NCBI RefSeq assembly: GCF_003627095.1 | Contig: NZ_CP032627.1 | Span: 620,001 to 684,000 of the forward strand | Source: Lactococcus allomyrinae | GTDB lineage: Bacteria > Bacillota > Bacilli > Lactobacillales > Streptococcaceae | DNA length: 64,000 nt | Direction: 5' to 3' | Shown: positions 4,734-64,000 of the stretch, piece after piece | Numbering within the stretch: the first letter of the stretch is position 1 | Layout of the letters: the number at the start of each line of letters is the position of its first letter | The notes under the pieces: model-generated | The model's input: the letters and a program-made list of their open reading frames with translations, nothing else | What the model was told of the DNA's origin: nothing | Database searches by the model: none | Made by a program: the position numbers and the translations under genes

Positions 4734-4764
4734 AGTTTGTCAGCATACTGACAGACTTCATTTT
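4727..4764 (+). terminator. Terminator of hemC-hemD-rluE built around a CTGTCAG palindrome
   Basis: AAAATGAAGT pairs with ACTTCATTTT around the inner palindrome TGTCAGCATACTGACA (4738-4753), giving a long stem ending in TTTT. Confidence 0.8.
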
Positions 4765-4795
4765 ACTCAAATACTAGCGTAGATGTAGAGGTAAA

Positions 4796-4830
4796 ATAAA
4801 AAATTCATCAGTGAGATGAATTTTTTATTT
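4796..4830 (-). terminator. Terminator of the ydjI-ydjG-ydjH operon
   Basis: AAAAAATTCATC-agtga-GATGAATTTTTT lies immediately beyond the stop of the last minus-strand gene. The A/T flanks would let it work in both directions, facing the hemC operon terminator. Confidence 0.75.
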
Positions 4831-5619
4831 CTAGAAACTACGACCTCCGCCGGAACCTCCACCTGAACTACCTCCACTATTTGAAGAAGGGCGAGGAATT
4901 CGTCGTGTTGTGATGAAAGTATTAACGAGAACATCTTGTTGTTCATTGAGTTCAAGATTACCGTTTGTCCCGTAATCATAGCGCCAAATCGAATGGCTGC
5001 CCTTCATTTGATAACGTCGATAAATCGTCCAGACAAAACTGCCACCAACAATAAATGCAACAATGACTGCGATTAAAATATTGAGCGGTTGAAAACTTCG
5101 ATGAAAGGTAATGACGCCGGTTTCAGGGTTAACTGTATACTTGCGAGAAGTAGGGATACCAGCTTGATAATAATGTTCAACTTTGTCAAAGAAGACACTC
5201 ACTGCACCAATGTTATCGTTATCTGATAAAGCAGGTTGCACGACATCAAGCGTGGCATTAATCCGAGAACTTGGCAGATAATATTTCATATTTCCTGTTG
5301 CCCAGATATAAACTTTGCGCAAATTCATATTGATGACGAGGACAACGCCATTATTGCCACTACCCACCTTGTCTGCCAGATAAGTTCTTGCGTAATCGCC
5401 TGCTGATATATCATTTTCTGTCGTGACGACAAAGACGCCAGCTCTTGTTTTTTGCGCAACTTCTTGAGCTTTTTGGGACAATGTTGAAACACTATCTCCT
5501 AAAATCTGTGCACTATCTTCAATATTTGAAGGAAAAGTCTGTGCTGTAGCTTGCTGAGCAAAGAATATAAAAAATAAAGTCAAAAAAGAAAGGACAAAAA
5601 GTGTTGATTTTTTTCTCAT
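4831..5619 (-). CDS. ydjH: TPM-domain membrane protein, YdjH/YgcG-like
   Basis: A 262-residue protein with a signal peptide (MRKKSTLFVLSFLTLFFIFF, then a polar turn), an extracytoplasmic TPM domain (about 30-160), a membrane segment near ILIAVIVAFIVGGSFVW, and a C-terminal Gly/Ser tail ending GGGRSF, as in YgcG/YdjH proteins. The start at 5619 is chosen because it overlaps the upstream stop (ATGA) and begins the signal peptide. In Bacillus subtilis, YdjH works with YdjG at the membrane in a stress response linked to PspA; the same role here is inferred from gene order. Confidence 0.75.
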   Translation of the reverse strand: MRKKSTLFVLSFLTLFFIFFAQQATAQTFPSNIEDSAQILGDSVSTLSQKAQEVAQKTRAGVFVVTTENDISAGDYARTYLADKVGSGNNGVVLVINMNLRKVYIWATGNMKYYLPSSRINATLDVVQPALSDNDNIGAVSVFFDKVEHYYQAGIPTSRKYTVNPETGVITFHRSFQPLNILIAVIVAFIVGGSFVWTIYRRYQMKGSHSIWRYDYGTNGNLELNEQQDVLVNTFITTRRIPRPSSNSGGSSGGGSGGGRSF

Positions 5620-6716
5620 GAAATGAAATACCCCACTAAAATTCCTAAAATTAAAATAAGCACGCATAGTCCTATTGCCCAGATCCAAAGCTTTGTTTTG
5701 TCAATGGGTAGGACACCAGCTACTTTACCTGTTTGTCCGTTCATTGCATAGTAAAAAAGTTTATCATTGCCTGCTTCACGATAAGTGACAAGCCAAATAG
5801 GAAGAAGTACATAATCTTCATCAAGTTTTTTGATTTGCTGCTGACTGCGGACATTACTGACAGAGCTGTAACCACTAATCGTATTTTCCATAAGTCTGTC
5901 AGCATACTGACGAAACTCTTGTTCAACATTTTCTTTCATGTCAGTGAACTCGATATCTCGTTTTTCTGTCAGAAAACCTGATAGGTACTGATTTTTGAAT
6001 GGAATTGCTGCACCCATGTCAAAAGGTTGAACTGAACCAACCATCTTATCAGCCAGATTTTTTTGTAAAGCATTTTTGATTAAATCCTTGAAACTGCTAT
6101 CTCCAGCACGCGCAATAGAATATTGTGAGTGCTCGGTGTATTCTATGTCCCCAGCAATCCAAACGCGTAAATTAGTTGCATCGGCAGACATTTCGCCAGA
6201 CAAATCTGCATCAACAGCCCAGTATGGAAAATAGACACCAGAAAGATTTTGAATTTGTTTTTTATTAAAAAATTCTTTAGGGACGAACAATTTTTTACCG
6301 ACCCAATCTAAAAATTTTGCTTCAGCATCATCTCGTTCAATCTGGAAAGGTAAAATTTTCTCTGGCAAAAATTGACCAGAAAGTCTAGAAGTAAGCACAA
6401 CGGGATTATGGCAGTAATAACACCAAGTTGATGCTGTTGTTGCATCTGTCACGATTTCAGCACCGCAGGAAGGACACAGAAAAATGCCGACTTCTTTGGT
6501 TTTAGCGTCAATTTCATTGCTGTCAGTGCTGATAGAAGTTGTTGATAAGTTGTCAGTAATGGCTGCATCAGCCTGCTTAGCTTCAAACTCTGTCACTTCC
6601 TGTTCAGTGAAAGTAGAACCACAATATTCACAATGGAATTTTTGATTTTTAGGTTCAAATAAGAGCGGTCCACCGCAATTGGGACATTTGTGCGTAAGCA
6701 CAGTACTGTCGCTCAT
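5616..6716 (-). CDS. ydjG: Zinc-ribbon membrane protein, YdjG-like
   Basis: The 366-residue product starts with a TFIIB-type zinc ribbon (HKCPNCGGPL..FHCEYCGSTF), has a second Cys pair (FLCPSCGAEI..TWCYYCHNPV), a long middle region, and one C-terminal membrane segment (LWIWAIGLCVLILILGILVG). This is the layout of Bacillus YdjG. ATG 6716 follows GGAG. The stop overlaps the next start, so it is coupled to ydjH. The reading frame contains a near-perfect palindrome (5897-5911) translated as RQYAD. Confidence 0.75.
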   Translation of the reverse strand: MSDSTVLTHKCPNCGGPLLFEPKNQKFHCEYCGSTFTEQEVTEFEAKQADAAITDNLSTTSISTDSNEIDAKTKEVGIFLCPSCGAEIVTDATTASTWCYYCHNPVVLTSRLSGQFLPEKILPFQIERDDAEAKFLDWVGKKLFVPKEFFNKKQIQNLSGVYFPYWAVDADLSGEMSADATNLRVWIAGDIEYTEHSQYSIARAGDSSFKDLIKNALQKNLADKMVGSVQPFDMGAAIPFKNQYLSGFLTEKRDIEFTDMKENVEQEFRQYADRLMENTISGYSSVSNVRSQQQIKKLDEDYVLLPIWLVTYREAGNDKLFYYAMNGQTGKVAGVLPIDKTKLWIWAIGLCVLILILGILVGYFIS

Positions 6717-6729
6717 AAGGTCTCCTTTT

Positions 6730-7104
6730 TTAATAATCTGCCCAGTCATTGCTAGGGTCGTCATCTTCTAAAACACCGAGAGTTCGAAAGTGTTCTTGTT
6801 CTTTTTTTCCCAAGAAACTGGCGATGAAGAGCAAAAGGGCACCAGGAAAATCAAGTAAAGAAAGAATAGCAACAATTCGCATTAAGATACGCCCAGTTTT
6901 TATTGTTTTTGCACCTTTTCTTTTCATTAACTCGCGAGAAAACCAGCCGAAAACTAGCACAATACTAAACCATAATAAATAACCAATCATATCTGACAGA
7001 TACTGATGTTCATAAATTTGACTGATGGCACCAATCCAAAGGAAACCAAAAATTACAGAGTTAAAAATATTACCAATCAGACTCAAAATTAGAGAGGCTT
7101 TCAT
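6730..7104 (-). CDS. Small membrane protein of unknown function in the ydj-like cassette
   Basis: A 124-residue protein with three to four predicted hydrophobic segments (around ILSLIGNIFNSVIFGFLWIG, MIGYLLWFSIVLVFGWFS and IVAILSLLDFPGALLLFIAS) and an acidic tail (LEDDDPSNDWADY). The start at 7104 follows GAGG. It sits eight bases after ydjI and 13 before ydjG, inside the operon. I do not recognise the family. Its position suggests a membrane partner of the YdjG/YdjH complex; this is inference only. Confidence 0.65.
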   Translation of the reverse strand: MKASLILSLIGNIFNSVIFGFLWIGAISQIYEHQYLSDMIGYLLWFSIVLVFGWFSRELMKRKGAKTIKTGRILMRIVAILSLLDFPGALLLFIASFLGKKEQEHFRTLGVLEDDDPSNDWADY

Positions 7105-7112
7105 AAAAGACC

Positions 7113-8327: not shown

Positions 8328-8385
8328 AATCGTTCCTTCCAAAATAGAATATTTTTATCATTCAATAAACTTATTATCCGTTTTC

Positions 8386-8391
8386 ATTATA
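8386..8391 (-). promoter_or_regulatory. -10 element of the ydjI operon
   Basis: On the minus strand TATAAT lies at 8391-8386, about 60 bases upstream of the ydjI start. The -35 region is weak. The remainder of the 378-base gap to 8705 holds a family B repeat and otherwise nothing recognised. Confidence 0.45.
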
Positions 8392-8527
8392 ACAAATTTC
8401 CTGTTTAAAACCCATATTATATCCATATTTTTTAAAAAATCGGTCCAAAGTCTGAAAAAATTGTGGCTTGAATTTTTAAAAGTAAAAGTTTAGAATTATC
8501 CATAGTACACAAGAGGTGAGGGGATTT

Positions 8528-8568
8528 TTAATACTGTTTAATTTTCAAACGTACCAATTGAAAATTTT
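8528..8568 (-). repeat. Dispersed repeat family B, copy 3, upstream of ydjI
   Basis: Read on the minus strand, TTTTCAATTGGTACGTTTGAAAA forms a hairpin in two arms (TTTTCAA..TTGAAAA) and is followed by TTAAACAGTATTAA, matching the other copies. It lies about 200 bases upstream of ydjI, beyond the putative promoter. Confidence 0.55.
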
Positions 8569-8705
8569 ACGCGAATCATCTCTTGCGCTTAATGCTGCTT
8601 TTCAAGGCTATGAATGAGAAAAGTATCGCCTTTTCCTTCCAAGCGTCACAAGACAATATTATCTATAGTGGAATCGCTAGATGAACTAATATAAGGAGAA
8701 TCTAT

Positions 8706-9848: not shown

Positions 9849-9851
9849 TCT

Positions 9852-9880
9852 TTGACGAAACTGATAAATTTCGTTATAAT
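9852..9880 (+). promoter_or_regulatory. Promoter of pyrK
   Basis: TTGACG (9852-9857) and TATAAT (9875-9880) are separated by exactly 17 bases, a near-consensus vegetative promoter starting the attenuated pyrK leader. Confidence 0.85.
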
Positions 9881-10228
9881 AATTTAAAACCTTTAAATGA
9901 GTCCAGAGAGGCTTACAAGGATACAGAAAATAGAATGTGAAGTGCTGACAATGTTTGATATAGTTCTGTCAGTGCTGACAGTTTTTAGTACACTTGTAGT
10001 CTGAGCTGCGAGTGTTTTTTGTATTATACTCGTTCGCCTTCAATTCTACGAAGTGCGATAGCATGGAGATAGAATTGTTAGATGAGCTGCAGATATTGTG
10101 CAAACTTTAACTTCTAAACGATACGTTTAAAAGTTAAACAGTATTAGTTCCACCGCTCAGCGAGATTTTGGACAAGCTTTGTGTGACTGACAACTTTTGT
10201 CAGCATACTGACAGAAATGGAGAAAGAA
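9881..10228 (+). promoter_or_regulatory. PyrR-type attenuator leader of pyrK
   Basis: AGTCCAGAGAGGCT at 9900-9913 is an exact match to the PyrR-binding loop consensus ARUCCNGNGAGGYU and is flanked by short complementary CCTT/AAGG arms. UMP-bound PyrR would favour termination. The first hairpin with a following T-run is the palindrome CTGTCAGTGCTGACAG (9966-9981) followed by TTTTT, which could be the attenuator. A second hairpin (CGAGT..ACTCG, 10011-10030) follows. The leader also carries a family B repeat and another CTGTCAG palindrome (10198-10213). The 348-base length is long for a pyr leader. Confidence 0.8.
10108..10148 (+). repeat. Dispersed repeat family B, copy 2, in the pyrK leader
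   Basis: AACTTCTAAACG and CGTTTAAAAGTT pair as a hairpin, followed by AAACAGTATTAGT. It is the best-preserved plus-strand copy of the family, 80 bases before the pyrK start. Confidence 0.65.
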
Positions 10229-11013
10229 ATGCCGAAATTACAAGAAATGATGACAGTGGTCAGTCAGCGTGAAGTTGCACGAGATATTTTCGAAATGGTG
10301 CTGACAGGTGAAATAGTTGCTGACATGGAAGTGCCAGGACAATTCTTGCATATCAAAGTACCCAATGATGCAATGCTTCTCAGACGACCAATTTCCATTT
10401 CAAGTTGGGATTCTGAAACTAATACTTGCACGATTTTATACAGAGCTGGGGATGAAGTGACAGGAACTAGACTTTTGTCAGTACTGACAGCAGGACAAAA
10501 GATTGATGTTATGGGACCTCTTGGACATGGTTTTCCGATTGACGAAGTCAAAAAAGGAGAACGTGTTTTGATTGTTGGTGGTGGTATCGGCGTTCCACCA
10601 TTATATGAGTTGGCTAAACGCTTGAGTAAAGTGAGTTGTAAAATTACAGTATTACTTGGTTTCGCCAGTAAAGAAGTCAAAATCTTAGAGCAGGAATTTC
10701 GTGAGTTATCAAATGTTGAGCTCAAAGTTGCAACTGATGATGGAAGTTATGGAACACAAGGTCATGTGGGACTTTTAATGAATGATTTAGACTTTGAACC
10801 TGACGCTGTTTATACTTGCGGTGCTGCTCCGATGCTCAAAGCGGTTGCTCAAAAATATGATACACTTGAACGACTTTATATCTCCATGGAAAGTCGGATG
10901 GCGTGCGGGATTGGTGCTTGTTATGCCTGCGTTGAACATGATAAAAATGATGAGTCAAAAGCATTGAAGGTATGTGAAGACGGTCCAGTTTTTACTGGAA
11001 ATGAGGTTCTTTT

Positions 11014-11017
<4 letters not shown>
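10229..11017 (+). CDS. pyrK: Dihydroorotate dehydrogenase B, electron transfer subunit
   Basis: The FAD/2Fe-2S subunit that passes electrons from PyrDb to NAD. The 262 residues show [11 protein letters not shown] (FAD binding), [13 protein letters not shown] (NAD binding) and the iron-sulfur cysteines in [21 protein letters not shown]. The start MPKLQEMM at 10229 follows GGAGA and matches the lactococcal form; an ATG at 10217 is less likely. A perfect CTGTCAG-type palindrome (10476-10489) is inside the gene and encodes LSVLT. The stop overlaps the following gene (ATGA). Confidence 0.95.
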
Positions 11018-12406
<1,389 letters not shown>

Positions 12407-12454
12407 TACAGAACGGTTCCAACTTTCAGAGTTTGTCCTGAGAGCAACTGTTTA

Positions 12455-13711: not shown

Positions 13712-14293
13712 TTGACCAAAAAAAGATTTAATTCAGAAATGTTTTATACAGGTTTTCCTGTGTTTATTACTCTTGTGAAAATAGACACAGAACAAATCCT
13801 TGCGACGACTTATAGCTCGTCTTATATGCTGGATAACTGGCTTGTCATAGGAGCAGGTGCTGACGGAAATACAGCTTCACATCTAAAAGTTGGAACAAAA
13901 TTGTCAGTAAATTATTTGGATGCTGAAAATGGGATTTTAGCTGATATTGCAGGTCTTGTCAGTAGTCGCACAAGGCTGTCAGTACTGACAGAAATGGGAG
14001 CAGAATTGACAGAGATTGATGAGATTCCGATCCTGGAAAATGGTTCAGTATCAATTATTGGGCAGATTGAAAAAGTTGTTTCGATGGATGGAATTAATCA
14101 TCTTTTTATAAAAATCACTGACAGATTTATTGATAAAAGGCTCCTTACTGACGGGAAAATTGATTGGGGAAATATGAGTGCGCTTGAATACTTTGGTGCT
14201 CAAACGGAACGATTTTACAAAGCTGTAAGTAGTGACAAAAAGAAAAAAGGACAATTTTTAAAAGAAAGTAGAAAACATGACACACGAAAATAG
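13712..14293 (+). CDS. Flavin reductase-like FMN-binding split-barrel protein
   Basis: The 193-residue product fits the flavin-reductase-like split barrel family, with [11 protein letters not shown] and [21 protein letters not shown] in the barrel. The TTG at 13712 is chosen from the AAAGGATG site upstream. The gene contains a perfect CTGTCAGTACTGACAG (13977-13992), translated LSVLTE. Its 3' end overlaps pyrF by 17 bases. The function is probably flavin-dependent reduction, with unknown substrate. Confidence 0.68.
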
Positions 14294-19118: not shown

Positions 19119-19166
19119 GATATACAGAAAACTCTGTCAGCGTGCTGACAGAGTTTTCTGTATATC
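19119..19166. terminator. 48-bp near-perfect palindrome between converging genes
   Basis: Two exactly complementary 22-base arms (19119-19140 and 19145-19166) flank the four bases CGTG. The centre is CTGTCAG-CGTG-CTGACAG. It separates the serC-serA-DUF1015 operon from the rsmG operon, so a two-way terminator is likely, although no T-run follows on either strand. Confidence 0.7.
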
Positions 19167-19189: not shown

Positions 19190-19903
19190 TTAAAGTGGTT
19201 TTTTAGCTGGCAATCCAGCTTTTCTAGGATATTTTTTCGGTGTTTCTTTTTTCTTTTCAATGATAGCAATATGCCGTTCATCACCATTTGGCAATTCATA
19301 AGCGATTTCTTTGATGAATTTACTTCCGAGGATGGCAATGGCATTTTTTGCCTCTGATAACTCTTCTGTGAATTGGCTGGCTTTCAGCGATAGAAGACGA
19401 CCATCTTTCTTTAAAAATGGAATGGTGAATTCCGATAAGACCGAAAGTCTTGCCACAGCACGAGCCGTAACTAAGTCAAACTGTCCACGATAGTGCGGGT
19501 TTTGGCCAAAATCTTCCGCCCGTCCATGAAGTAGAGTTACCTCTTTAAGTCCTAGCTCATCTGTCAGTACTGACAGAAAATTGATCCGCTTTTGTAAGCT
19601 GTCAATGATCGTTACTTTTAATGACGGGAAAATTATTTTCATCGGTAAGCTAGGAAAACCAGCCCCAGCGCCAATATCAAGAAGAGTAGTCGCATCGTCA
19701 GCAATAACATCATACAAAATTGGAGCAATTGAATCATAAAAATGTTTTAAATAGACATCTGATTGCTCGGTAATTGCAGTCAGATTGATTTTCTCATTCC
19801 ACTCAACAAGTAACTCAAAATAGCGTTGGAACTGCTCTTTTTGGTGTTCAGAAAGTATAATATTAAATTCTGTAAGTAGCGACAAAAATTCATCAGGGGT
19901 CAT
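19190..19903 (-). CDS. rsmG: 16S rRNA (guanine-527-N7)-methyltransferase
   Basis: A 237-residue SAM-dependent methyltransferase with [15 protein letters not shown] (SAM site) and [13 protein letters not shown] near the start. The tail is basic ([20 protein letters not shown]). It is the last gene of a minus-strand operon and overlaps dmkB by four bases (ATGA). The gene contains a perfect CTGTCAGTACTGACAG (19561-19576), translated LSVLTD. Confidence 0.93.
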
Positions 19904-24954: not shown

Positions 24955-24972
24955 CTGTCAGTATACTGACAG
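24955..24972. repeat. CTGTCAG palindrome between xpaC and telA
   Basis: CTGTCAGTATACTGACAG, perfect 7-base arms. It follows a partial copy (TGTCAGCATAGCTGATAA, 24935-24952). No T-run follows, so it is not a standard terminator. Confidence 0.75.
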
Positions 24973-26224: not shown

Positions 26225-26256
26225 AAAAAGTCTGTCAGTATACTGACAGACTTTTT
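26225..26256 (+). terminator. Terminator of telA built on a CTGTCAG palindrome
   Basis: AAAAAGT-CTGTCAG-TATA-CTGACAG-ACTTTTT; the perfect palindrome is 26232-26249. Confidence 0.85.
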
Positions 26257-30707: not shown

Positions 30708-30738
30708 AATAAGTCTGTCAATATTGACAGACTTTATT
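30708..30738 (+). terminator. pyk-ldh intergenic hairpin, variant of the CTGTCAG palindrome
   Basis: AATAAGTCTGTCA-ATAT-TGACAGACTTTATT. The inner arms are one base shorter than in the standard repeat (CTGTCA). It may partly terminate pyk transcripts. TTGACA in its right arm plus a downstream TACAAT (15-base spacer) could also give ldh a weak promoter. Confidence 0.65.
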
Positions 30739-33591: not shown

Positions 33592-33858
33592 AATTTAAAA
33601 TAATTTAAAAATAGAGATGAAAGAGTAATTTGTTTGTAGCAGAAAAGAGAGCCTCGTTGCTGAGAAAGAGGTCTGTTATGACAAATGAACCACACTCATC
33701 GCAATCTTTTTTCTGTCAGCACTGACAGAAAACGTTTGTCCCGTTATAACTTGAGTTTATACTTACAGAGGTACTTTTTGTGAAAAGAGTACGAAAAAAG
33801 GTGGAACCACGATTGATATGCCGTCCTTTAAGCCTCGCGCTTTTAGGCGGTTTTTTTA
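33592..33858 (+). promoter_or_regulatory. T-box leader (histidine) of hisC
   Basis: A stem I region with GAGATGA, AGAGAG and a GTTGCTGAGAA distal loop precedes a specifier loop containing GAACCACAC, where CAC reads as a histidine codon. The T-box TGGAACCACG is at 33802-33811, and a GC-rich terminator with TTTTTTT ends at 33858. Uncharged tRNA-His would stabilise the antiterminator. An intact CTGTCAGCACTGACAG (33713-33728) sits between the specifier region and the antiterminator, an extra hairpin not part of the T-box fold. Confidence 0.9.
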
Positions 33859-33867: not shown

Positions 33868-33885
33868 CTGTCAGTATACTGACAG
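33868..33885. repeat. CTGTCAG palindrome between T-box terminator and hisC
   Basis: CTGTCAGTATACTGACAG, perfect arms, 29 bases upstream of the hisC start. It is the second copy in this leader. Confidence 0.8.
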
Positions 33886-33914
33886 AAAAAAAGGAACTTA
33901 TGAAAGGAATGTTT

Positions 33915-34979
33915 ATGTCTTGGAAAGATAATCTACGTAAAGTTCACCCTTACGTTGCGGGTGAACAACCTGATTTTATGGATATGATAAAGCTTAATAC
34001 GAATGAGAACCCCTATCCTCCCAGTCCCTTAGTGACGAAACAGCTTCGTCAGTATGACAGTAAGGATCTTCGGCTTTATCCGCAAGCTGATGCCGATCGA
34101 CTTCGTGCAGAATTAGCTCAATATTATAGGTTATCTGAGCAACAAATATTCATTGGTAATGGTTCTGACGAGGTGCTTTCTCTTTCGTTTTTAACTTTTT
34201 TTAATAGTGATAAGCCATTGTTAATACCAGATATTAGTTATTCCTTTTATCCTGTTTACTGTGATTTGTACGATATTGAGTATAAAAATGTAGCTCTTAC
34301 TCAGGATTTCCGTTTAGTTTTTGCAGATTATTGTCAGCCAAATGGTGGGATTGTCTTTGCTAATCCTAATGCTCCGACTGGTTTGGCGATAAATCTACAC
34401 GAAATTGAGTATATTTTGCAAAAAAATCCAGATTCTCTTGTTTTAATTGATGAGGCATATGTTGATTTTGGTGGACAATCAGCGATTTCCCTCTTGGATA
34501 AATATGAAAATTTATTGATTACACGAACTTTTTCAAAATCACGCGCGCTTGCTGGTATCCGTTTGGGTGTAGCTTTGGGGAATGAGTTTGCGATTAGTAA
34601 ACTATATGACGTTAAAAATTCGTTTAATTCGTATCCTGTGGATAGTTTGGCACAAGAAATCGGGATTGCTAGTATTTTAGACCAAAAATATTTTGACCAT
34701 ACTGTTAAAAAAATTATTTCTACGCGAGAATGGTTCAAAGCATCGCTGATAACGCTTGGTTTTGAACTGACAGACTCTAAAGCCAATTTTGTATTTGTTA
34801 AACATCCTAAAATTTCGGGAAAAGAGTTATTTAATGCGCTTTACGATGAAAAAATTATTGTGCGACATTGGCAAAAACCGCGTCTTAACGATTGGTTGCG
34901 CATTACAATCGGTACTGATGATCAAATGAAAAGAGTTGCGCAGTTTTTAAAACAATATCTTGAAGAAAGAAAAAAATAA
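33915..34979 (+). CDS. hisC: Histidinol-phosphate aminotransferase
   Basis: A PLP transaminase of histidine synthesis, 354 residues. It has MIKLNTNENPYPPSP, the VLIDEAYVDFGG motif and the PLP lysine in TRTFSKSRALAGIRLG. The start MSWKDNL at 33915 follows AAAGGA and matches the family; starts further upstream would run through the T-box terminator. First gene of the his operon. Confidence 0.95.
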   Translation: MSWKDNLRKVHPYVAGEQPDFMDMIKLNTNENPYPPSPLVTKQLRQYDSKDLRLYPQADADRLRAELAQYYRLSEQQIFIGNGSDEVLSLSFLTFFNSDKPLLIPDISYSFYPVYCDLYDIEYKNVALTQDFRLVFADYCQPNGGIVFANPNAPTGLAINLHEIEYILQKNPDSLVLIDEAYVDFGGQSAISLLDKYENLLITRTFSKSRALAGIRLGVALGNEFAISKLYDVKNSFNSYPVDSLAQEIGIASILDQKYFDHTVKKIISTREWFKASLITLGFELTDSKANFVFVKHPKISGKELFNALYDEKIIVRHWQKPRLNDWLRITIGTDDQMKRVAQFLKQYLEERKK

Positions 34980-35091: not shown

Positions 35092-36060
35092 ATGAACAAC
35101 TATCACTATCTGCTTCCAGAAGAGTCAGCGGAAATGTCACTTATACAAGTAGCTAATCTAAGAAAAATTGAAAAAATATTGCGCGAGATATTTATTAACG
35201 CGAACTATCAAGAAGTAATGCCGCCTAACTTTGAATACGTTGAACTTTACACCCAACTTGGTTCAGATTTTAAATCAGAGAAACTTTTTCAGATGATTAA
35301 TCATGAAGGAAAATCTATCGCTTTGCGCTACGATTTCACCATCCCTTTAGCACGAACTTATGCCTATACAAGAAATTCAGAAGTTGAACGTTATGTCTAT
35401 TTTGGCAAGGTTTTTAGAAAAGAAAAACGGCATAAAGGTCGCCGTACGGAGTCTTATCAAATTGGCATTGAATTATTGGGAGCCCAAGAACAACTTGCGG
35501 ACAAGGAAATTATTGCATTGAGTCTTGCGACACTAGAACAAATTCCCCTCAAACATTCCGTCCTTGAAATTGGCTCAGCAAAATTTTACAAACGTCTTTG
35601 CGAATTAGTTGGGCAAGAAAAATCAAAAGAGTTGACAGAACTTCTCAAAAAAAGAAATATCAGCGGTATTGAGCAATTTGTAAGTAGTAATCAATTTCCG
35701 TCAGCATTCAAAAATTTACTGACAAAGTTGCCAGTGCTGACAGACCCACTGTCATTACTGAAATTAGTTGCTGCTACCCAAGATGAAATACTGATTGAAG
35801 CTGTCAGTACACTTACTCAACTTTGTCAGCAATTTTCTGACGACCATCAGATTGTCATTGATTTGGCAATGGTTCCAGCCATGAGTTATTACACAGGCTT
35901 GATGCTGACAGCTTACAGTGATGTTGTCAGTCAACCCATTATCTCAGGTGGACGCTATGATGAACTTTTATCAAGGTTTGAACTTAAAACTACTGCGATT
36001 GGTTTTTGTTGTCATATGGACAATATTCTCAAAGCAATAGAGGAGGAAACAAATGCTTAA
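35092..36060 (+). CDS. hisZ: ATP phosphoribosyltransferase regulatory subunit
   Basis: A class II histidyl-tRNA synthetase-like protein without tRNA-charging function that activates short-form HisG. The 322 residues show [18 protein letters not shown] and [20 protein letters not shown] (motif 2), and [13 protein letters not shown] (motif 3). It overlaps hisG by eight bases. Between 35698 and 35935 the gene is packed with CTGTCAG/CTGACAG half-sites. Confidence 0.93.
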
Positions 36061-46095: not shown

Positions 46096-46914
46096 TTAAT
46101 GAAATTGACGTGTCAAACAGTCAATTTCGATACTGACAGTGATTTCTAATTCTTTATATGTTTTGAGTTTGTCAATACCGTCAGGTTTTATTTTCCAGTA
46201 GTGAGGTGTCATTAGAAGTAGGCTGAGCAGGTCATCAGTGGTTTTAATCGTTGTTTTGTAGCGATAATTTTCACGTTCAACATGGTAACCTGGGAAATAC
46301 TTGATGCTGGCTGCTTTAACTTTTTCATGAATTTCAGGGTAAATGATATTTTTTAATTCCAAAAGATGGTCGCTTGCAGCTCTGACAATAATGACAGTAC
46401 CTTTGTCAGCAAGGACTCGATCAATTTCTTCGACAGAATATTCAGCGAACATGGACAAAACACTGCTGATAGAATGGTCAGTAAAGGGAAGTTTGGAAAA
46501 ATTGGCCACAAGCCAATGAATGTCAGGATTTTTCTTTGCTGCCATACGAATACCGAGCTTTGAAATATCAAGACCATAGAACTGATCTGCATGATGAGCC
46601 ATTTGACGTTGAAAGCGTGAGAGGTAGTAGCCCTCACCACAGCCGATATCAATGACAGAACTTTTGTCAGTACTGACGGCTTGTAAGTGAGTATTGATAT
46701 GGTCTGACAGCTTTTCGTAATAGCCTTTTGCGAGAAAATTTCGTCTGGCTGCCATCATTTCTTTGGAATCACCCGCTGTCTTTTTGGCATTAAGTAAAAG
46801 GTTAAGATATCCTTCTTTAGCACAATCGAAACTATGATGATTGCTACATTCATAAGTTTTTTCATGTGGAGTTAATGCTTGGTCGCAGACAGGACATTTT
46901 AATATTTCATTCAT
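46096..46914 (-). CDS. rlmA: 23S rRNA (guanine-N1)-methyltransferase, RlmA family
   Basis: A 272-residue protein with an N-terminal zinc-binding site (LKCPVCDQALTPHEKTYECS..H) and a SAM site VIDIGCGEGYYLSRF. The NLLLNAKKTAGDSKEM segment is typical of RlmA. The target is a guanine in 23S rRNA helix 35, either G745 or G748 by homologues. ATG 46914 is preferred over an ATG at 46920 on spacing from AGAAAG. A near-perfect palindrome (46675-46688) lies in the gene, translated AVSTD. Confidence 0.88.
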   Translation of the reverse strand: MNEILKCPVCDQALTPHEKTYECSNHHSFDCAKEGYLNLLLNAKKTAGDSKEMMAARRNFLAKGYYEKLSDHINTHLQAVSTDKSSVIDIGCGEGYYLSRFQRQMAHHADQFYGLDISKLGIRMAAKKNPDIHWLVANFSKLPFTDHSISSVLSMFAEYSVEEIDRVLADKGTVIIVRAASDHLLELKNIIYPEIHEKVKAASIKYFPGYHVERENYRYKTTIKTTDDLLSLLLMTPHYWKIKPDGIDKLKTYKELEITVSIEIDCLTRQFH

Positions 46915-47125: not shown

Positions 47126-48748
47126 CTATCTCGAAATCTTTCTGGCTTTAATGATTTCTTCATCTGGTGTGACGCGAATCGTTTTTTCACGGTCATAGGT
47201 AACAAATCCGGGCGCTGTACCAGTAGGTTTGTGTAATTTTTTAGCTTCTAAAACATCAACTTGAACAAGGTTGGAGTGACGTGCTTTGCTGAAATAAGCA
47301 GCGAGTTCTCCAGCAAATGTAATCGTTTCATCAGAAGGAGTGGGATTTCCCGTAATAAGTACGTGACTTCCAGGAATATCTTTGACATGAAACCACAAAT
47401 CTCCACGTCTTGAGAGTTTGAATGTGACTTGTTCATTTTGTAAATTATTTTTGCCGACGAGAATAATTGTGCCATCGGGGGCCTGATATTTTTCGGGTGG
47501 TAGCATTTTTTGTTTCTTGTTACGATATTTTTGCTTGATATATCCGGTCTGAATAAGTTCTTCACGAATATCTGCAATCTCAGGAACATCAGCATTTGAA
47601 AGATTTGATTCAACAGATTCAAGATAAGTGATAGCTTGTTTGGTTTGCTCAATTTGTTCGCCCAAGAATTTGACAGCTTGTTTTAATTTTTGATAGCGAT
47701 GGAAGTAGCGCTGAGCATTTTGCACAGGCGTTCGGGATAAATCTAAGGCGATCTCAATCGGTTTGTCAGTATAATAATTTTCTAATGTTACTGATGGTTT
47801 GTCATTTGGCACTTGCTGGAGGAAAGTGTTGAGGAGTTCACCTTTTTGACGAAAAATTTCAGCTTTGTCAGTTGCTGACAGCTCTGTTTCTTGCTTTTTA
47901 AGTTTGTCACGATTCTTTTTAAGCTCATTTTGAACTTTTTTGATGACGCTGCTTGCGACTTGTTTGACACGGTCTCGCTCCGCCTTGTCGGCATAATAGA
48001 TATCCAGCATTTCTGACAAATCATCAAATTTGACAAAATCATCTGTCAGTTGAATACTTGAAAAACGATCATCAGAATAAATTGATGGTACAACGTTAGT
48101 CAATTTTTGCTTAAAGTCATTGACTGACAGACCTGAAAGCGCCTCTCGACTATCACGCCCAATACCTTGAAAAACTTTTGAGAGGCTGTCAGTCTGAAGC
48201 GCATCAAAAATTTTTTCGTCAGTGCTGACAAAAGGATTAATAGCATTTGTCAGCGGTGGTGTGATGTAAGTCGAACCTGGCAAAATCGTTCGATATTGAT
48301 TTTGTGAAAATCCAATGTGTTTGATACTCTCAATAATTTTACCTGAAGTTTGCTCAAGTAAGATAATGTTACTGTGTTTGCCCATAATTTCTGCAATTAG
48401 CGCGATTTTCATCATGTCACCAATTTCATCCTTGGTGGAAATATGGAAAATAATTTGTCGATCATTGCCAACTTGTTCAATTTTTTCAATGAAACTGCCA
48501 GCCAAATACTTGCGCAGAATCATGACAAAATTAGTCGGATTTTGTGGATTTTGAAAGTCTGTTTTCGTCAATTGAACACGTCCAAATACAGGATGAGCGG
48601 ACAGCAAAAGTTTATGTGATTTACCATTTGCACGCACGGTCAGCACAAGTTCCTGCTCGAAAGGCTGATTGATTTTCTGAATACGACCGCCGACAAGGAG
48701 CTGCAATTCAGCGGTCATGTGGTGTAGAAAAATACCATCAAAAGACAT
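47126..48748 (-). CDS. rqcH: Rqc2/RqcH family ribosome quality control protein (NFACT, fibronectin-binding-like)
   Basis: 540 residues with an NFACT-N domain (MSFDGIFLHHMTAELQLLV; HPVFGRVQLT), a central coiled coil (about 260-400, KKVQNELKKNRDKLKKQETE) and an NFACT-R domain (RRGDLWFHVKDIPGSHVLI). RqcH adds alanine tails to stalled chains on free 50S subunits; older names call it fibronectin-binding protein. It is monocistronic. Confidence 0.92.
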   Translation of the reverse strand: MSFDGIFLHHMTAELQLLVGGRIQKINQPFEQELVLTVRANGKSHKLLLSAHPVFGRVQLTKTDFQNPQNPTNFVMILRKYLAGSFIEKIEQVGNDRQIIFHISTKDEIGDMMKIALIAEIMGKHSNIILLEQTSGKIIESIKHIGFSQNQYRTILPGSTYITPPLTNAINPFVSTDEKIFDALQTDSLSKVFQGIGRDSREALSGLSVNDFKQKLTNVVPSIYSDDRFSSIQLTDDFVKFDDLSEMLDIYYADKAERDRVKQVASSVIKKVQNELKKNRDKLKKQETELSATDKAEIFRQKGELLNTFLQQVPNDKPSVTLENYYTDKPIEIALDLSRTPVQNAQRYFHRYQKLKQAVKFLGEQIEQTKQAITYLESVESNLSNADVPEIADIREELIQTGYIKQKYRNKKQKMLPPEKYQAPDGTIILVGKNNLQNEQVTFKLSRRGDLWFHVKDIPGSHVLITGNPTPSDETITFAGELAAYFSKARHSNLVQVDVLEAKKLHKPTGTAPGFVTYDREKTIRVTPDEEIIKARKISR

Positions 48749-49717: not shown

Positions 49718-49733
49718 CTGTCAGTACTGACAG
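49718..49733. repeat. CTGTCAG palindrome downstream of the DUF3592-like gene
   Basis: CTGTCAGTACTGACAG, a perfect 16-base palindrome, 32 bases after the stop, with no T-run. Confidence 0.8.
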
Positions 49734-49902: not shown

Positions 49903-49918
49903 CTGTCAGCACTGACAG
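49903..49918. repeat. CTGTCAG palindrome after the 49.9 kb terminator
   Basis: CTGTCAGCACTGACAG, perfect, four bases after the T-run of the preceding terminator. Confidence 0.8.
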
Positions 49919-56276: not shown

Positions 56277-56300
56277 TCGTCATTTAATGTATATTTTACC

Positions 56301-60548: not shown

Positions 60549-60574
60549 TTTAGTGTTTTGACTTCACAAATTTT

Positions 60575-60613
60575 TAAAAGTTTGCATAATAATTATTATG
60601 CAGGCTTTTCTTT
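60575..60613 (+). terminator. Terminator of the surface protein
   Basis: A perfect palindrome GCATAATAATTATTATGC inside AAAAG..CTTTTCTTTT. Confidence 0.75.
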
Positions 60614-60679
60614 TAGAGGTGATGTTGTGAGGCGTGTATTACAAAAAATAGATTTATAGGCTAACTCTTTGAAAATAAA

Positions 60680-60688
60680 TGCTATAAT
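60680..60688 (+). promoter_or_regulatory. Extended -10 of kdpD
   Basis: TGCTATAAT, 26 bases before the kdpD start; -35 not clear. Confidence 0.55.
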
Positions 60689-60713
60689 ATGAGCAACTAA
60701 ATATCAGGGGCAA

Positions 60714-63353
60714 ATGATGAAAAAAGGAAAATTACGAATTTATTTCGGTTATGCGGCTGGTGTTGGGAAAACTTACGCTATGCTTGAAGGGGCGCATGAA
60801 GCCCAAAAAGATGGAATTGATGTGGTGGCTGGTTATATTGAACCTCATGCACGACCTGAAACCATGCGATTGCTGGATGGATTGGAGAAATTACCGACTA
60901 AGAGTTTGATTTATAAGGGAATTAAACTTCAGGAATTTGATATTGATGCTGCAATTGTAAGAAAACCGCAAATTATGCTAGTTGATGAGTTGGCACATAC
61001 TAATGGTTATGGGTCACGGAATAAGAAAAGATTTCAGGATATTGAGGAGTTACTTCGGGCAGGAATTGATGTTTATACAACGGTGAATGTTCAGCATATT
61101 GAGAGCTTGAATGATGTTATTGAAAAGATAACAGGAATTCGTGTGAATGAAAGGATTCCTGATGATATTTTTGATGAGGCTGACCAAATAGAATTAGTTG
61201 ATATTGAGCCGTTGGATTTGCTTGAACGTCTTGATAAGGGAAAGATTTATCAAAAAGCTCAAGCCTATCGTGCAATGCAAAATTTCTTTACAGAGGAGAA
61301 GTTGATTGCTCTTCGTGAGATAGCATTGCGCAAAACAGCTGACCAAGTGAACCATAGTGCGGTTCGCATGGATAAAAATAGAAATAGTGCTTATACGAAA
61401 GAGCATGTTTTGGTCTGTGTTTCTCCTTCACCATCAGCACTGCACGTGATTCGATCAGCGGCACGTTTGGCGATGGCGTTTAAAGCAGAATTTACGGCGC
61501 TTTATGTGGGAAATGCGGAGACTGAATCTTTTAGTGACGAAGATAAATTGAGGTTACGTCAGAGCTTACGGTTAGCTGAACAGCTAGGAGCAAAGGTTTC
61601 GGTTGTTTATGGGGATGACCTCCCTCAACAAATCGTAGAGTATGCCAAGGTGAGTCATGTGTCAAAGCTAGTAATAGGTAAAAGTGCGGAACAACCATTT
61701 TGGCGAAGGGTGAATATTGTTGATTTTTTAAGTCAGACGGCGCCTAATTTAGATATTTATGTCATCCCAAATGGGAGAGCACTGGAGGAGACATCACATC
61801 GAAAGTTTTATCAACTGGCAAAACTACATTTTTCTGTCAGCGATTTATTTAAAACTTTACTGATGCTTGTCATTGTGACGGTAGTCGGTCTGGCTTTTCG
61901 ATATTGGAATTTCAGTGTTGCAAATATTATTACAATCTATATCTTAGGGGTTCAGATTAATGCTGTGCTGACAAAGGGAAGAATTTTTAGCGTTATTTCG
62001 TCAGTGCTTTCAGTGCTTTGTTTTAACTACTTTTTTACTGCTCCTTATTTCACTTTTGTGGCATTTAGTCCGAATTATCCAGTAACTTTTTTTATCATGC
62101 TTGCTGCAGGGTTAATTACAGCAACATTGATTAAGAGGATTCAGGAGCAAGTGAGAGCTTCTGCTGAGAAGTCTTATCGTACGGAAATTTTACTTCAAAC
62201 CAATAAGGAATTGGCACAATCTGATTCGGTAGTAGATATTTTAGAGGCTACAGCTTATCAAGTTGAAAAATTGTTGGAGCGTGATATTGTTGTCTATCCT
62301 GTTGAAGAAGGCGTACTTAGCGAACCACATTATTTTGCTACGGGACAGTCTAATCGTACATTAGCCACTTATGAATCCTATAAGGAAAAAGGCGTAGCTG
62401 AGTGGGTGATGCATAATAACAAGCGAGCGGGAGCAACAACGAGTACTTTATCTGCTTCAAAATATTTGTATCTTTCTATTCGAGGTAAAAATCAGGTTTT
62501 TGCTGTGATTGGAATATTAATGACTGAAAAATCTGAACTGGAAGTTTTTGAAAAATCAGTCGTTTTTGCGATTTTAGGTGAGGCTGCACTAGCTTTGGAG
62601 AAAGAAATTTTACGTGAGGAGCAGCAGAAAACGGAGCTTAAGATGCAACAAGAGCAGCTTCGCGCTAACCTACTTCGTGCGATTTCTCATGATTTGCGGA
62701 CACCACTGACAAGTATTTCAGGTCATGCAAAATTACTGATGGAATCTGGTCAAAGTCTGGACGAGCTTCAGAAAAATGAGCTTTCAGCGTATATCTATGA
62801 TGATGCGATGTGGCTGATTAACTTAGTCGAAAATCTGCTCTCTATCACAAAATTGGATGGTGATGTGGAGTTGCAGCTAACAACAAATATCATTGACGAA
62901 GTGATTGAGGAGGCTTTGAAACATGTGGATAGGCATTTGAGTCAACATCAATTTAGTTTGGAACTATCATCTGAGGTGTTGACTGCGAAAATGGATGCTT
63001 CTTTAATGATTCAAGTATTAATCAATATTATTAATAATGCTGTAAAATACACGCCTGTTGGCTCAATGATTGTGCTAAGCACACAGCGTTTGGACGGAAA
63101 AATGGTGGTAGAAGTTGCTGATGATGGGGTTGGGATTAGAGATGAAGCAAAGTTGAAAATTTTTGATTTATTTTATACAACAGGAAATCGTCAAGTGGAT
63201 TCAAAACGTGGTTTAGGTCTTGGTCTATCCTTGTGTAAGAGTATTATCGTGGCGCACGGTGGTGAGATTTATGCACGAGATAATTATCCAAAAGGTGCAA
63301 TTATTGGTTTTACATTACCTTTAGTGGAGGTTGTTTTAGCAGATGGAGAATGA
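60714..63353 (+). CDS. kdpD: KdpD sensor histidine kinase
   Basis: 879 residues in the full KdpD order. The N-terminal KdpD domain has GYAAGVGKTYAMLEG (Walker A). A universal-stress-protein-like domain follows (about 230-360), then four membrane segments (about 380-480), a GAF-like region, HisKA with the phospho-accepting histidine in RAISHDLRTPLTS, and HATPase (NIINNAVKYTPVG, DDGVGIRDE, RGLGLGLSLCKSI). It senses potassium or turgor in known systems. It overlaps kdpE. The kdpABC pump genes are not in the window. Confidence 0.94.
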   Translation: MMKKGKLRIYFGYAAGVGKTYAMLEGAHEAQKDGIDVVAGYIEPHARPETMRLLDGLEKLPTKSLIYKGIKLQEFDIDAAIVRKPQIMLVDELAHTNGYGSRNKKRFQDIEELLRAGIDVYTTVNVQHIESLNDVIEKITGIRVNERIPDDIFDEADQIELVDIEPLDLLERLDKGKIYQKAQAYRAMQNFFTEEKLIALREIALRKTADQVNHSAVRMDKNRNSAYTKEHVLVCVSPSPSALHVIRSAARLAMAFKAEFTALYVGNAETESFSDEDKLRLRQSLRLAEQLGAKVSVVYGDDLPQQIVEYAKVSHVSKLVIGKSAEQPFWRRVNIVDFLSQTAPNLDIYVIPNGRALEETSHRKFYQLAKLHFSVSDLFKTLLMLVIVTVVGLAFRYWNFSVANIITIYILGVQINAVLTKGRIFSVISSVLSVLCFNYFFTAPYFTFVAFSPNYPVTFFIMLAAGLITATLIKRIQEQVRASAEKSYRTEILLQTNKELAQSDSVVDILEATAYQVEKLLERDIVVYPVEEGVLSEPHYFATGQSNRTLATYESYKEKGVAEWVMHNNKRAGATTSTLSASKYLYLSIRGKNQVFAVIGILMTEKSELEVFEKSVVFAILGEAALALEKEILREEQQKTELKMQQEQLRANLLRAISHDLRTPLTSISGHAKLLMESGQSLDELQKNELSAYIYDDAMWLINLVENLLSITKLDGDVELQLTTNIIDEVIEEALKHVDRHLSQHQFSLELSSEVLTAKMDASLMIQVLINIINNAVKYTPVGSMIVLSTQRLDGKMVVEVADDGVGIRDEAKLKIFDLFYTTGNRQVDSKRGLGLGLSLCKSIIVAHGGEIYARDNYPKGAIIGFTLPLVEVVLADGE

Positions 63354-64000
63354 TGTGATTAAAATTTTGATTTGTGAGGATGATCCGTCAGTCAATAAAT
63401 TATTGTCTTTAACGATGGAAGTTGAAGAATATGATTATACGGCGGTTCAGACGGGTAAAGATGCTTTACGTGAGTTAGTAACGCACCGCCCTGATGTATT
63501 GATTTTGGATTTGGGACTGCCTGATATGGATGGTCGTGAAATCATTGAAAAAGTGCGCGGTTTCTCACAACTACCGATTATTGTGGTGAGTGCGCGCGGT
63601 GAAGAGACGGATAAAATCGGTGCGTTAGATGCGGGTGCAGATGACTATTTGACGAAACCTTTTAGCACTGATGAGTTGTTAGCGCGTCTGCGTGTGAGCT
63701 TACGACGAGCAAAATTTGCTGACAAGAATCTGTCAGCACTGACAGAAAAAACAGAATTTATCAACGGCTGGCTGCGAATAGATTTTTTGTCAAAATGTGT
63801 ATTTGTCAATGGTGAAGAGATCCACCTGACTCCAATTGAATACAAATTACTTTGTCTTTTGTCTGAAAATATTGATCGTGTTTTGACTTATCATTTCATT
63901 GTCAAGGAAATTTGGGGTTATTATGAGGAGGATTTTTCGGCTTTGCGTGTCTTCGCTAATACATTGCGCAAGAAAATTGAACTTAATCCAGCACATCCTA
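63343..64000 (+). CDS. kdpE: KdpE response regulator, OmpR family (C-terminus cut off)
   Basis: An OmpR-type regulator running off the right edge; 219 codons are seen. The receiver domain has ICEDD, the phospho-aspartate in LILDLGLPDMDG and the lysine in YLTKPF. A winged-helix DNA-binding domain follows (LTPIEYKLLCLLSEN, LRVFANTLRKKIE). ATG 63343 overlaps kdpD by 11 bases, with GGAGG upstream; GTG 63355 is an alternative start. A perfect CTGTCAGCACTGACAG (63730-63745) lies in the linker, encoding LSALTE. Confidence 0.92.
   Translation, partial: MENDVIKILICEDDPSVNKLLSLTMEVEEYDYTAVQTGKDALRELVTHRPDVLILDLGLPDMDGREIIEKVRGFSQLPIIVVSARGEETDKIGALDAGADDYLTKPFSTDELLARLRVSLRRAKFADKNLSALTEKTEFINGWLRIDFLSKCVFVNGEEIHLTPIEYKLLCLLSENIDRVLTYHFIVKEIWGYYEEDFSALRVFANTLRKKIELNPAHP

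Follow-up and report, generated by a model that had tools for sequence, protein, structure and literature searches.

Several kinds of highly iterated short DNA sequences have been described in bacteria. HIP1 of cyanobacteria is an octameric palindrome of unsettled function that is highly iterated, also in coding DNA, and for which we know of no helical phasing. The uptake sequences of Pasteurellaceae (USS) and Neisseria (DUS) are spread by uptake and recombination, and REP/BIME elements are interspersed palindromes, some of them adjoining gene ends. In Lactococcus lactis, Mrazek is said to have described WWNTTACTGACRR in 2002 as a highly repetitive motif. This motif, noted two decades ago, is discussed at the RNA level in an article that, in the passages used here, ties TTACTGAC / GTCAGTAA to mRNA destabilisation and describes it as almost missing from the genes of phages and transposons (PMC2526093).

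In the window analyzed here, the whole of a 64-kb stretch of Lactococcus allomyrinae DNA, we found 15 TGTCAG-N-CTGACA dyads versus 0.03 expected from 100 dinucleotide shuffles (largest count 1), in agreement with the preliminary description, which had put the chance expectation at far fewer than one. The 14 full-arm copies that it listed were all recovered, to within one base according to whether or not the outer C is included, and all 14 carry the YR or YRYR spacers that it had reported; the fifteenth dyad, listed there as a near copy, lies at 47866..47880 and has the three-base spacer TTG. None is assigned to a strand. Two palindromes sit between convergent predicted genes, within a longer stem at 4738..4753 (spacer CATA) and a long stem at 19135..19150 (spacer CGTG; arms kept in the same-genus genome G011, with spacer CACG). 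Three surround the start of a gene at 10217-11017, which we take to be pyrK-like: a terminator-like match upstream of it (9967..9980, spacer TG, followed by a T-run, arms intact in G011), a copy just 5' of its predicted start (10198..10213, CATA, unchanged in G011) and one inside it (10476..10489, TA, one arm change in G011). At the aligned place of the last, L. hircilactis (G005) has a palindrome, and G007, G012 and G003 have none. Other copies inside predicted genes are those at 13977..13990 (TA; gene 13739-14293; unchanged in G011), at 19562..19575 (TA; gene 19190-19903, presumably RsmG-like; aligned with a single unit in the lactis-like G007), at 63731..63744 (CA; gene 63343-63999, which runs off the window and which we assume to be response-regulator-like; unchanged in G011) and the fifteenth dyad (gene 47126-48748; G007 and G012 retain one half). 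Intergenic copies were found at 24956..24971 (TATA; one arm base different in G011, a single unit in G007 in a gapped alignment), 26233..26248 (TATA, with an extended stem; unchanged in G011), 33714..33727 (CA, replaced by TA in G011), 49719..49732 (TA; TG in G011) and 49904..49917 (CA; TA in G011), and one lies just 5' of a predicted gene at 33900-34979 (33869..33884, TATA; CATA in G011). Five of the six near copies named before (5897, 28020, 30714, 47866 and 48220) fall within a few bases of their given positions, the one at 30715..30730 showing paired changes (CTGTCAATATTGACAG), and the sixth, 46675, proved to be the right flank of a copy with two mismatches (46664..46679). Further near copies lie at 6520..6535 (one mismatch) and 35728..35743 (two mismatches).

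The check set beforehand, a genome-wide count, gave 540 palindromes in L. allomyrinae (G000) and one for the reversed control pattern, far from the near-random number that had been named as counting against the motif. A chromosome sample of 824 kb, made up of the window and 38 stretches and covering 31% of the chromosome, contains 182 palindromes with spacers of 2 (124), 3 (4) or 4 bases (54); YR or YRYR spacers are present in 165 of the 182, and no conserved sequence was seen past about 10 bases on each side. The repeated unit is TACTGACAGAA, 11 bases long and often arranged in back-to-back mirror pairs. Each palindrome is two head-to-head units, and spacers of 2 and 4 arise because these units either share TA or abut at it. 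In the sample we counted the seven-base core RCTGACA 1103 times, versus a median of 134 across 150 permuted words. The density, 1.3 units per kb, is similar to that of uptake sequences, which typically reach about one per kb and greatly exceed chance.

Four other searched genomes hold 442-706 palindromes each, three from the same genus (G005, G011 and G013) and one from another (G045); mirrored pairs at such copy numbers in these four and in G000 distinguish the signal from the printed L. lactis motif. Yet both have the same core, and the TTACTGAC core reaches high copy number here too: TTACTGACAG is found 824 times, mostly unpaired, in G007 (labelled lactis-like from its GC, its form of the motif and its place in the tree), 547 times in G001 and 256 times in G000. 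The TTACTGACAG motif of L. lactis thus proves to be one among the dialects of a wider Lactococcus signal. The preliminary description, which knew of no described function, came close: for L. lactis the half-site has been published together with its link to mRNA destabilisation (PMC2526093, in the part used here), but neither the palindromic form nor its helical phasing nor the phased A-tract flanks were found in the literature searched. A garvieae-like clade (our own label for G003, G004, G006, G008 and G010) has 0-1 palindromes. The motif was apparently lost in G002, by comparison with G005 and G013, and in G012, by comparison with G007, G001 and G016. Plasmids stay near background, with 14 units versus 85 expected. 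In viral contigs the 16-mer was seen as 16 single-copy stretches, which we read as chance.

The units are strongly clustered, up to six per cluster, and in G000 the distances between them repeat every 10.36 bp (bootstrap 10.32-10.38), coherently to ∼250 bp. Of the 617 unit pairs 2-11 turns apart, 532 share a helix face and 85 do not, whereas an even split would be expected by chance; the face offsets were fitted on the same genome. The power of this phasing is 250.8, and none of 300 jittered controls exceeds 8.5; nearest-neighbour pairs alone still reach 155.7 (versus 11.3). All three orientation classes share one face, in that their offsets close. At one turn, same-direction pairs are nearly absent (4) and mirrored ones common (172 and 102), as the bulk of a protein together with the dyads would give. 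With the offsets fitted on G000, the phasing recurs in G007 (418 pairs, power 70.2), in another genus, g2 (83 pairs, power 21.7), and, among the matches listed, in L. hircilactis (706 pairs, power 134; the loci were chosen by an 18-mer of the motif, a bias for palindromes and not for spacing); in G013 it is weak (26 pairs, power 2.1). In a scan of phased weak 4- and 5-mers the figure for GACAG was inflated by incomplete masking of full units, and it is not used here. Whatever its putative reader does, the signal is very probably read from one face of double-stranded DNA.

A-tracts flanking the units share their phase, strongly to ∼100 bp, with a best period of 10.28 near units versus 11.18 genome-wide. 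Because clustered units share flanks, which inflates the power, units were thinned to one per 400 bp, and the A-tract power at 10.36 bp in G000 was then 75-94 in five draws, whereas none of 59 control words exceeded 13.2. Lone palindromes (53) were each counted once, since using both orientations would force symmetry on the profile and understate the noise; on either side they display A+T waves, similar in phase, out to ∼104 bp. With thinning and single counting the A-tract phasing holds in G000 and L. hircilactis, and it is weak in G007 after thinning (12-21 in five draws versus a control maximum of 10.6). Unit clustering, one-face phasing of pairs and phased A-tract flanks are new here.

Such flanks could also mean that the palindromes are preferred sites of a topoisomerase of type IIA, for instance gyrase, an enzyme that wraps DNA and recognises bends in phase. 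A gyrase-type stagger prefers G at -4 and C at +8, and spacer-2 palindromes have these bases around a centred four-base stagger; single units and palindromes with spacers of 4 do not keep to this stagger. In E. coli the gyrase motif, according to the excerpted text, is symmetrical and spans 130 bp with flanks of periodic G+C content (PMC6379681), resembling the symmetrical centre and the phased A/T flanks on both sides of our lone palindromes. But that motif, in the same excerpts, has a period of 10.75, ends near 65 bp and is degenerate, without a rigid core, whereas the Lactococcus signal combines a period of ∼10.3 and longer flanks with a strong seven-base core and a dialect of single units. 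Motif-free Lactococcus, moreover, presumably has gyrase too, and we consider a topoisomerase site an unlikely explanation.

According to our own simple gene finder, by which coding shares are approximate, 99 of the 182 palindromes in the sample lie within predicted genes and 83 are intergenic. The claim that copies extend beyond terminators into coding DNA is thereby borne out, and the confinement to terminators that would have spoken against it is not what we see. Part of the picture is indeed accounted for by terminators of transcription or by mRNA stability hairpins in which one stem is favoured: a T-run adjoins 39 of the 83 intergenic palindromes, at least five extra stem pairs extend 25 of the 83, and the half-site has its link to mRNA destabilisation in L. 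lactis. However, just 13 of the 99 coding palindromes have a T-run, so that intrinsic terminators describe a share of the copies and not the family, and single units form no hairpin at all. Phasing recurs in coding DNA alone (power 76), where the helical phasing of same-direction units has no RNA meaning, and terminators or RNA hairpins therefore cannot explain all copies; as a full explanation they are excluded, and that such hairpins are what the signal is about appears very improbable.

The preliminary description had further suggested a spreading hairpin element. High copy number and a strong consensus would fit a mobile or self-copying, REP-like palindrome. Nevertheless, the core is gapless against a relative in 12 of 14 aligned coding cases, a small sample, from which it follows that the palindromes arose by substitution. 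No conserved sequence accompanies them beyond their nearest flanks, they are common in coding DNA, unlike REP/BIME, and a Y1 (RAYT) transposase match was obtained in four of 26 genomes, with, among those rich in the motif, none in G000, G011, G013 or G045 and one with internal stops in G005. A REP-like origin is thus largely refuted, and we give it hardly any credence. A segregation signal, also proposed, is not supported in its directional, KOPS-like form: units are found 562 times on the leading and 541 times on the lagging strand, without the leading-strand preference of KOPS or Chi, and the symmetry check suggested earlier comes out as no replication-strand bias. No density trend toward ori or ter is visible by eye either, and so no macrodomain role shows. 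Within genes there is a mild sense excess (390 versus 322).

Sites mostly arise by substitution and turn over, and they are better kept than control words. At 94% identity, cores are intact in 86% of 116 sites, versus 68.5% of 2922 control words. Over a longer distance they are barely better kept: 20 of 99 positions are shared with G007, versus 16.7% for control words, and no single site therefore seems essential. The coding density of units drops from 2.06 to 0.44 per kb with rising codon adaptation (based on a reference of only seven genes), and units pile up where proteins are under weak constraint (local identity 0.62 versus 0.71). The falling density fits tolerated accumulation as well as function.

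Many of these properties are those of an uptake signal, for which competent cells would prefer unit-bearing DNA, and uptake and recombination would spread the unit through the core genome. Like USS and DUS, the units occur at about one per kb, lack replication-strand bias, lie mostly in coding DNA where they come by substitution rather than insertion, and form dialects by clade; their accumulation in weakly constrained segments and the near-background plasmids agree with this. As in USS, though not DUS, core and A/T tracts are one helical turn apart (PMC1626085, in the part cited), a feature weak in G007. The Lactococcus signal differs in its Gram-positive host, its palindromic form, its phased clusters reaching ∼250 bp and its tracts on both sides to ∼100 bp. 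Its units cluster strongly, whereas USS/DUS are described, in the excerpted text, as somewhat more regular than random; our USS sample for phasing beyond the known USS segments (38 USS in 48 kb of Aggregatibacter kilianii) was underpowered. Competence genes show no tie to the motif. Among motif bearers, G000, G011, G005, G013, G007 and G016 have a full open frame for ComEC, and in G001 and in G045, whose assembly is incomplete, it is in pieces; the frame is equally open in G004, G006, G008, G010 and G017, which are motif-free. ComEA scores over the cut-off in 24 of 26 genomes, comG frames are missing or split in some motif bearers, and the comG region of L. hircilactis lacks most pilin frames, so that competence-gene status, as compared for ComEA, ComEC and comG, does not separate motif-bearing from motif-free species. 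As of 2006, uptake sequences were known solely in Pasteurellaceae and Neisseriaceae (PMC1626085, in the part cited), and a 2025 review, in its excerpted text, names Neisseria as the sole exception to unselective uptake. An uptake signal is a possible but doubtful reading.

The one-face arrangement suggests that a protein reads the unit. We propose, as the most likely reading, that TACTGACAGAA is the site of a putative sequence-specific protein sitting on one side of bent double-stranded DNA, which would probably engage units as dimers or larger assemblies and could wrap or bend ∼200 bp as a nucleoid-type organiser. Such a nucleoid or wrapping role has, in our judgment, slightly less than an even chance. 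The units, arranged on one face in coding and intergenic DNA alike, lend support in kind to the earlier suggestion of a binding-protein site or an uptake-type signal. More tentatively, thousands of units and A-tracts, dispersed in coding DNA, might jointly form a positional code on one helical face over ∼200 bp, and a bacterial protein, either a nucleoid protein of the wrapping kind or a multivalent receptor for DNA uptake, would use it to identify the DNA of the core chromosome as self. We know of no earlier such positional code in Gram-positives, nor of one of the uptake-signal kind. If true, this would be the first such code in a Gram-positive and, given an uptake role, the first Gram-positive uptake-signal system. 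The double-helix geometry of the signal makes the question of the reader testable. A sequence-specific wrapping protein would represent a new kind of bacterial chromatin component, and an uptake signal would overturn the view of Gram-positive competence as sequence-blind, in a food bacterium.

The pattern TGTCAG-N(0-8)-CTGACA matches 15 times in the window, against a mean of 0.03 and a maximum of 1 in 100 dinucleotide shuffles, and these matches include all 14 palindromes listed in the preliminary description. The excess is also genome-wide: the 2.76-Mb genome of this Lactococcus (chromosome of 2,695,154 bp) carries 540 dyads versus a single copy of the backward-read pattern. In a chromosome sample of 824 kb, made up of the window and 38 stretches of 20 kb, we found 182 palindromes with 2-4 base spacers (length 2, 124; length 3, 4; length 4, 54). 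They are conserved symmetrically as TTYTGTCAG-YR-CTGACARAA, beyond which only A-rich and then T-rich flanks are seen. In half-site copies outside palindromes, TA is favoured ahead of the core and AA behind it, which defines the unit as TACTGACAGAA. Counted on both strands by its core RCTGACA, this unit occurs 1103 times in the 824 kb (median of 150 permuted words, 134), and the genome holds 131 clusters of at least three units, versus 10 under random placement. The rule that spacers are YR or YRYR, proposed from the window, describes 165 of the 182 palindromes. We infer that a spacer of 2 represents two head-to-head units sharing their TA and a spacer of 4 (TATA) two abutting units, a geometry that would explain both this rule and the scarcity of 3-base spacers.

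The main new result of our analysis is the helical phasing of these units. Distances between same-direction pairs peak at 21, 30, 40, 50, 60, 71, 82 and onward, and thus follow the turn of the double helix, with a Rayleigh power of 117 at 10.3 bp; the best of 150 control words, which overlaps the palindrome itself, reached 10.4, and the next 3.3. Because unit pairs are not independent, we used controls in which each unit was jittered by up to 6 bp: the observed power of 250.8 compares with at most 8.5 in 300 such controls, and nearest neighbours alone give 155.7 versus 11.3. For G007, a lactis-like relative with mostly unpaired units, offsets derived from L. allomyrinae yield a power of 70.2 versus 9.8 in jittered controls. 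A fit over 17-200 bp gives periods of 10.36 bp for L. allomyrinae (bootstrap 10.32-10.38) and 10.25 bp for G007 (10.20-10.32). Coherence in L. allomyrinae is 0.68 at 17-45 bp, 0.33 at 200-250 bp and 0.18 beyond, and in G007, with few pairs, it falls from 0.62 to 0.27 between the first two ranges. One half of the helix holds 532 of the 617 pairs at 2-11 turns (offsets fitted on the same genome). Each pair class (same-direction, mirrored heads, mirrored tails) has its own offset, yet the three close on a common face: adding the offsets of heads and tails and subtracting twice the direct one leaves, modulo a turn, -0.2 bp in L. allomyrinae and -0.6 in G007. At a distance of one turn, there are 4 same-direction pairs versus 172 and 102 mirrored ones. 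Phasing is found within coding units alone (power 76) and among intergenic units (34). The L. allomyrinae phase recurs at 104 loci of L. hircilactis DSM 28960 (power 134, 706 pairs); units are also phased in G045, a motif-rich genome of another genus (21.7, 83 pairs), and in G011, a near relative of L. allomyrinae and hence not independent (47.3), and weakly in Lactococcus sp. dk101 (2.1, 26 pairs).

Since same-direction units inside genes are phased over many turns, their reader would view the double helix from one side, and we consider it very probable that the motif is read on one face of double-stranded DNA. Reading at the RNA level was rejected because the helical phase shared by same-direction units within genes would carry no meaning for RNA; such phasing over many turns would also mean little for single strands. 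Among the interpretations offered in the preliminary description, one-face phasing favours a protein site or an uptake-type signal.

A-tracts around the units are phased as well. A ranking of every 6-mer and 4-mer by phase relative to the units put TTTT and AAAA first among the 4-mers, and A/T runs alongside motif parts at the top of the 6-mers. Around all L. allomyrinae units, A-tract power reaches 259 at 10.36 bp and rises to 304 at its optimal period of 10.28 bp. As clustered units share flanks, we took one unit per 400 bp in five draws, which gave 75-94 in L. allomyrinae (at most 13.2 for 59 thinned control words), 97-139 in L. hircilactis (at most 8.9 for 58 words) and only 12-21 in G007 (at most 10.6 for 60 words); thinning lowers the figures, but the conclusion stands. 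The signal is strong to ~104 bp, with fainter traces further out in L. allomyrinae (power at 200-300 bp: 26 for all units, 9 after thinning). Around 53 lone palindromes, each counted once, A+T waves of 0.046-0.113 (noise 0.021-0.031) run on both sides out to 104 bp with phases of 3.3-5.5 bp, nothing clear being seen beyond, and the averaged peaks lie ~14.5, 25, 36, 46 and 56 bp from the centre. Phased A-tracts bend DNA, so that the typical palindrome would form the centre of a ~200-bp segment curved in a single plane, its core predicted to share a face with the A-tracts. The genome-wide A-tract period is 11.18 bp, unchanged (11.18) away from units, and 11.32 bp in three motif-free garvieae-like genomes pooled (G003, G004, G008). 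A period of ~10.3 rather than the genome's 11.2 suggests that the DNA being read lacks the usual underwinding, being either protein-wrapped or outside the cell. The E. coli gyrase motif has flanks of the same kind, but it is degenerate, extends over 130 bp and has a period of 10.75 bp, versus ~10.3 here (PMC6379681).

The motif exists in several dialects. Among 18 genomes of the genus, palindromes (N2-4) are numerous in L. hircilactis (706), G011 (568), L. allomyrinae (537) and dk101 (494), fewer in G002 (71), G007 (28), G001 (23), G016 (19), G015 (18) and G012 (6), and number 0-2 in the remaining eight. Few genomes outside the genus exceed background in a family survey of 295 genomes, evenly drawn out of a larger group: G045 (442), G040 (36) and G034 (19), all of genus g2, and G039 (9). 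The largest genus surveyed, g5, probably a streptococcus, has 0-4 throughout; the reversed control ACAGTCN2-4GACTGT is raised in a few genomes of this genus (G096 15, G271 10, G252 8 copies). The single form TTACTGACAG, searched on both strands of 59 genomes (L. hircilactis and G011 falling outside that draw), occurs 824 times in G007, 547 in G001, 344 in G016, 256 in L. allomyrinae and 40 in G012, and its reversed control at most 14 times per genome. In G007, 369 of 382 CTGACAG copies lack a mirrored partner immediately upstream, and single units stand at orthologous positions occupied by a palindrome in L. allomyrinae, examples being 24956 and the gene at 19190-19903. An unbiased k-mer ranking of 46-100 kb samples of nine relatives, plus L. 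allomyrinae, placed on top TTACTGACAGA-type words in G007, parts of CTGTCAGTACTGACAG in L. allomyrinae, L. hircilactis and G011, and parts of CTGTCAGCGCTGACAG in the GC-richer G045; no motif-like word ranks high in the samples of G002, G003, G004 and G008. A different repeated word, CAAAGCGACAGAGAGCA-like, has ~15-25 copies in the G004 sample (L201-L203). In a pyruvate kinase tree, motif-poor G002 adjoins the rich L. hircilactis and dk101, and motif-poor G012 adjoins G016, G001 and G007, which may be read as two separate losses, gains being also conceivable. Two adjacent pyruvate kinase-like genes lie in tandem in L. hircilactis (C23), G002 (C12) and dk101 (C8).

Compared with G007 (116 orthologous gene pairs, 76% nucleotide identity), 12 of 14 alignable palindromes have a gapless core and therefore arose by substitution, which argues against the spreading hairpin element that had also been considered. 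Units stand in the same place in 20 of 99 cases, versus 16.7% for 179 pooled permuted control words. Against G011 (94% identity over 89 kb of alignment), 86% of 116 units keep an intact core, versus 68.5% of 2922 control words, and the spacer varies within YR. Unit density is maintained while positions drift. The pyrK-like gene gave two overlapping partial matches in G011 (C1:1663417-1664213), one with an internal stop.

Our own gene caller predicted 791 genes (83% coding) in the sample, with 99 of the 182 palindromes inside genes and 83 between them, the latter between same-direction (65), convergent (10) or divergent genes (5) or at stretch ends (3). A T-run accompanies 39 of the 83 intergenic palindromes and 13 of the 99 in genes, and at least five further stem pairs 25 and 4, respectively. 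Roughly half of the intergenic copies may double as terminators, and the palindrome is, as previously held, not confined to these. The sample showed no replication-strand bias of units (leading 562, lagging 541), which speaks against the segregation signal once envisaged, and no ori-ter trend in density by eye over the 39 stretches. Genic units mildly favour the sense direction (390 vs 322), despite the absent replication-strand bias. Three stretches (L132, L133, L157) hold 5-6 units per 20 kb versus a mean of 27 and are dense in short one-direction genes; we took them for mobile or prophage DNA, with genes listed for L132 only. L132 (chromosome 210001-230000), whose listed genes resemble an integrated mobile element, belongs to a long gap without palindromes (183-298 kb). 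In genes outside these stretches, unit density drops from 2.06 to 0.44 per kb between the lowest and the highest fifth of codon adaptation, and units favour less conserved protein segments (local identity 0.62 vs 0.71, n=99). Two small plasmid-like contigs carry 14 units in 63 kb, versus 85 predicted from the chromosomal rate, and 0 palindromes versus 14 predicted.

A putative reader acting as a dimer or larger assembly on bent or wrapped DNA would account for the phasing, the clustering, the mirrored pairs and the virtual absence of same-direction neighbours at one turn. Our first choice, tentative and held at slightly under even chances, is a nucleoid-type wrapping protein. Ranked closely behind it is an uptake signal, which we regard as possible though less likely than not: the motif agrees with the description of the Pasteurellaceae USS in its abundance, dialects, substitution origin, plasmid scarcity, helically spaced A/T tracts and freedom from replication-strand bias, but its units are clustered, unlike uptake sequences, for which that account gives a somewhat regular spacing (PMC1626085). 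Elsewhere, Neisseria is named as the exception to unselective DNA uptake (PMC12236230). Competence genes, moreover, fail to track the motif. ComEA scores above its family cut-off in 24 of the 26 genomes, some of them motif-free, and ComEC has a full open frame in motif-bearing genomes (L. allomyrinae, G011, L. hircilactis, dk101, G007, G016) and equally in motif-free ones (G004, G006, G008, G010, G017), while it is fragmented in motif-bearing G001 and G045 (the latter an incomplete assembly) as well as in G003, which lacks the motif. Most pilin-like frames are missing or split in the comG region of L. hircilactis (L383), but as there is one genome per case, recent decay of competence genes is possible. 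The L. hircilactis genome combines the defective pilin frames with the highest palindrome count of the 18. The comGB-like frame is split in L. allomyrinae (L374, 1117-1945 and 1953-2232, reverse strand) and is a single 371-codon frame in G011. A small frame, comGG-like by position, follows the comGF-like gene in other Lactococcus genomes; it was not seen among frames of at least 70 codons in the comG regions of the motif-free clade (G003 L377, G004 L378, G006 L371, G008 L369, G010 L376).

The consensus of Mrazek's 2002 motif is reportedly WWNTTACTGACRR. In L. lactis IL1403, regions downstream of ~19% of genes contain gtcagtaa/ttactgac; phage, prophage and transposon genes almost lack this word (4%), which is referred to as a highly repetitive motif (Mrazek 2002) with a role in mRNA destabilisation (Redon 2005) (PMC2526093). 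The preliminary view that no function had been described thus needs amending for the half-site, and stands for the palindrome within the literature searched (mostly titles and abstract openings), which held nothing further on the palindrome, Lactococcus uptake sequences or motif function, nor TTACTGACRR in print. The Lactococcus motif is already known yet unexplained; its double-helix geometry, which we did not find described in that literature, makes the motif's putative reader findable.
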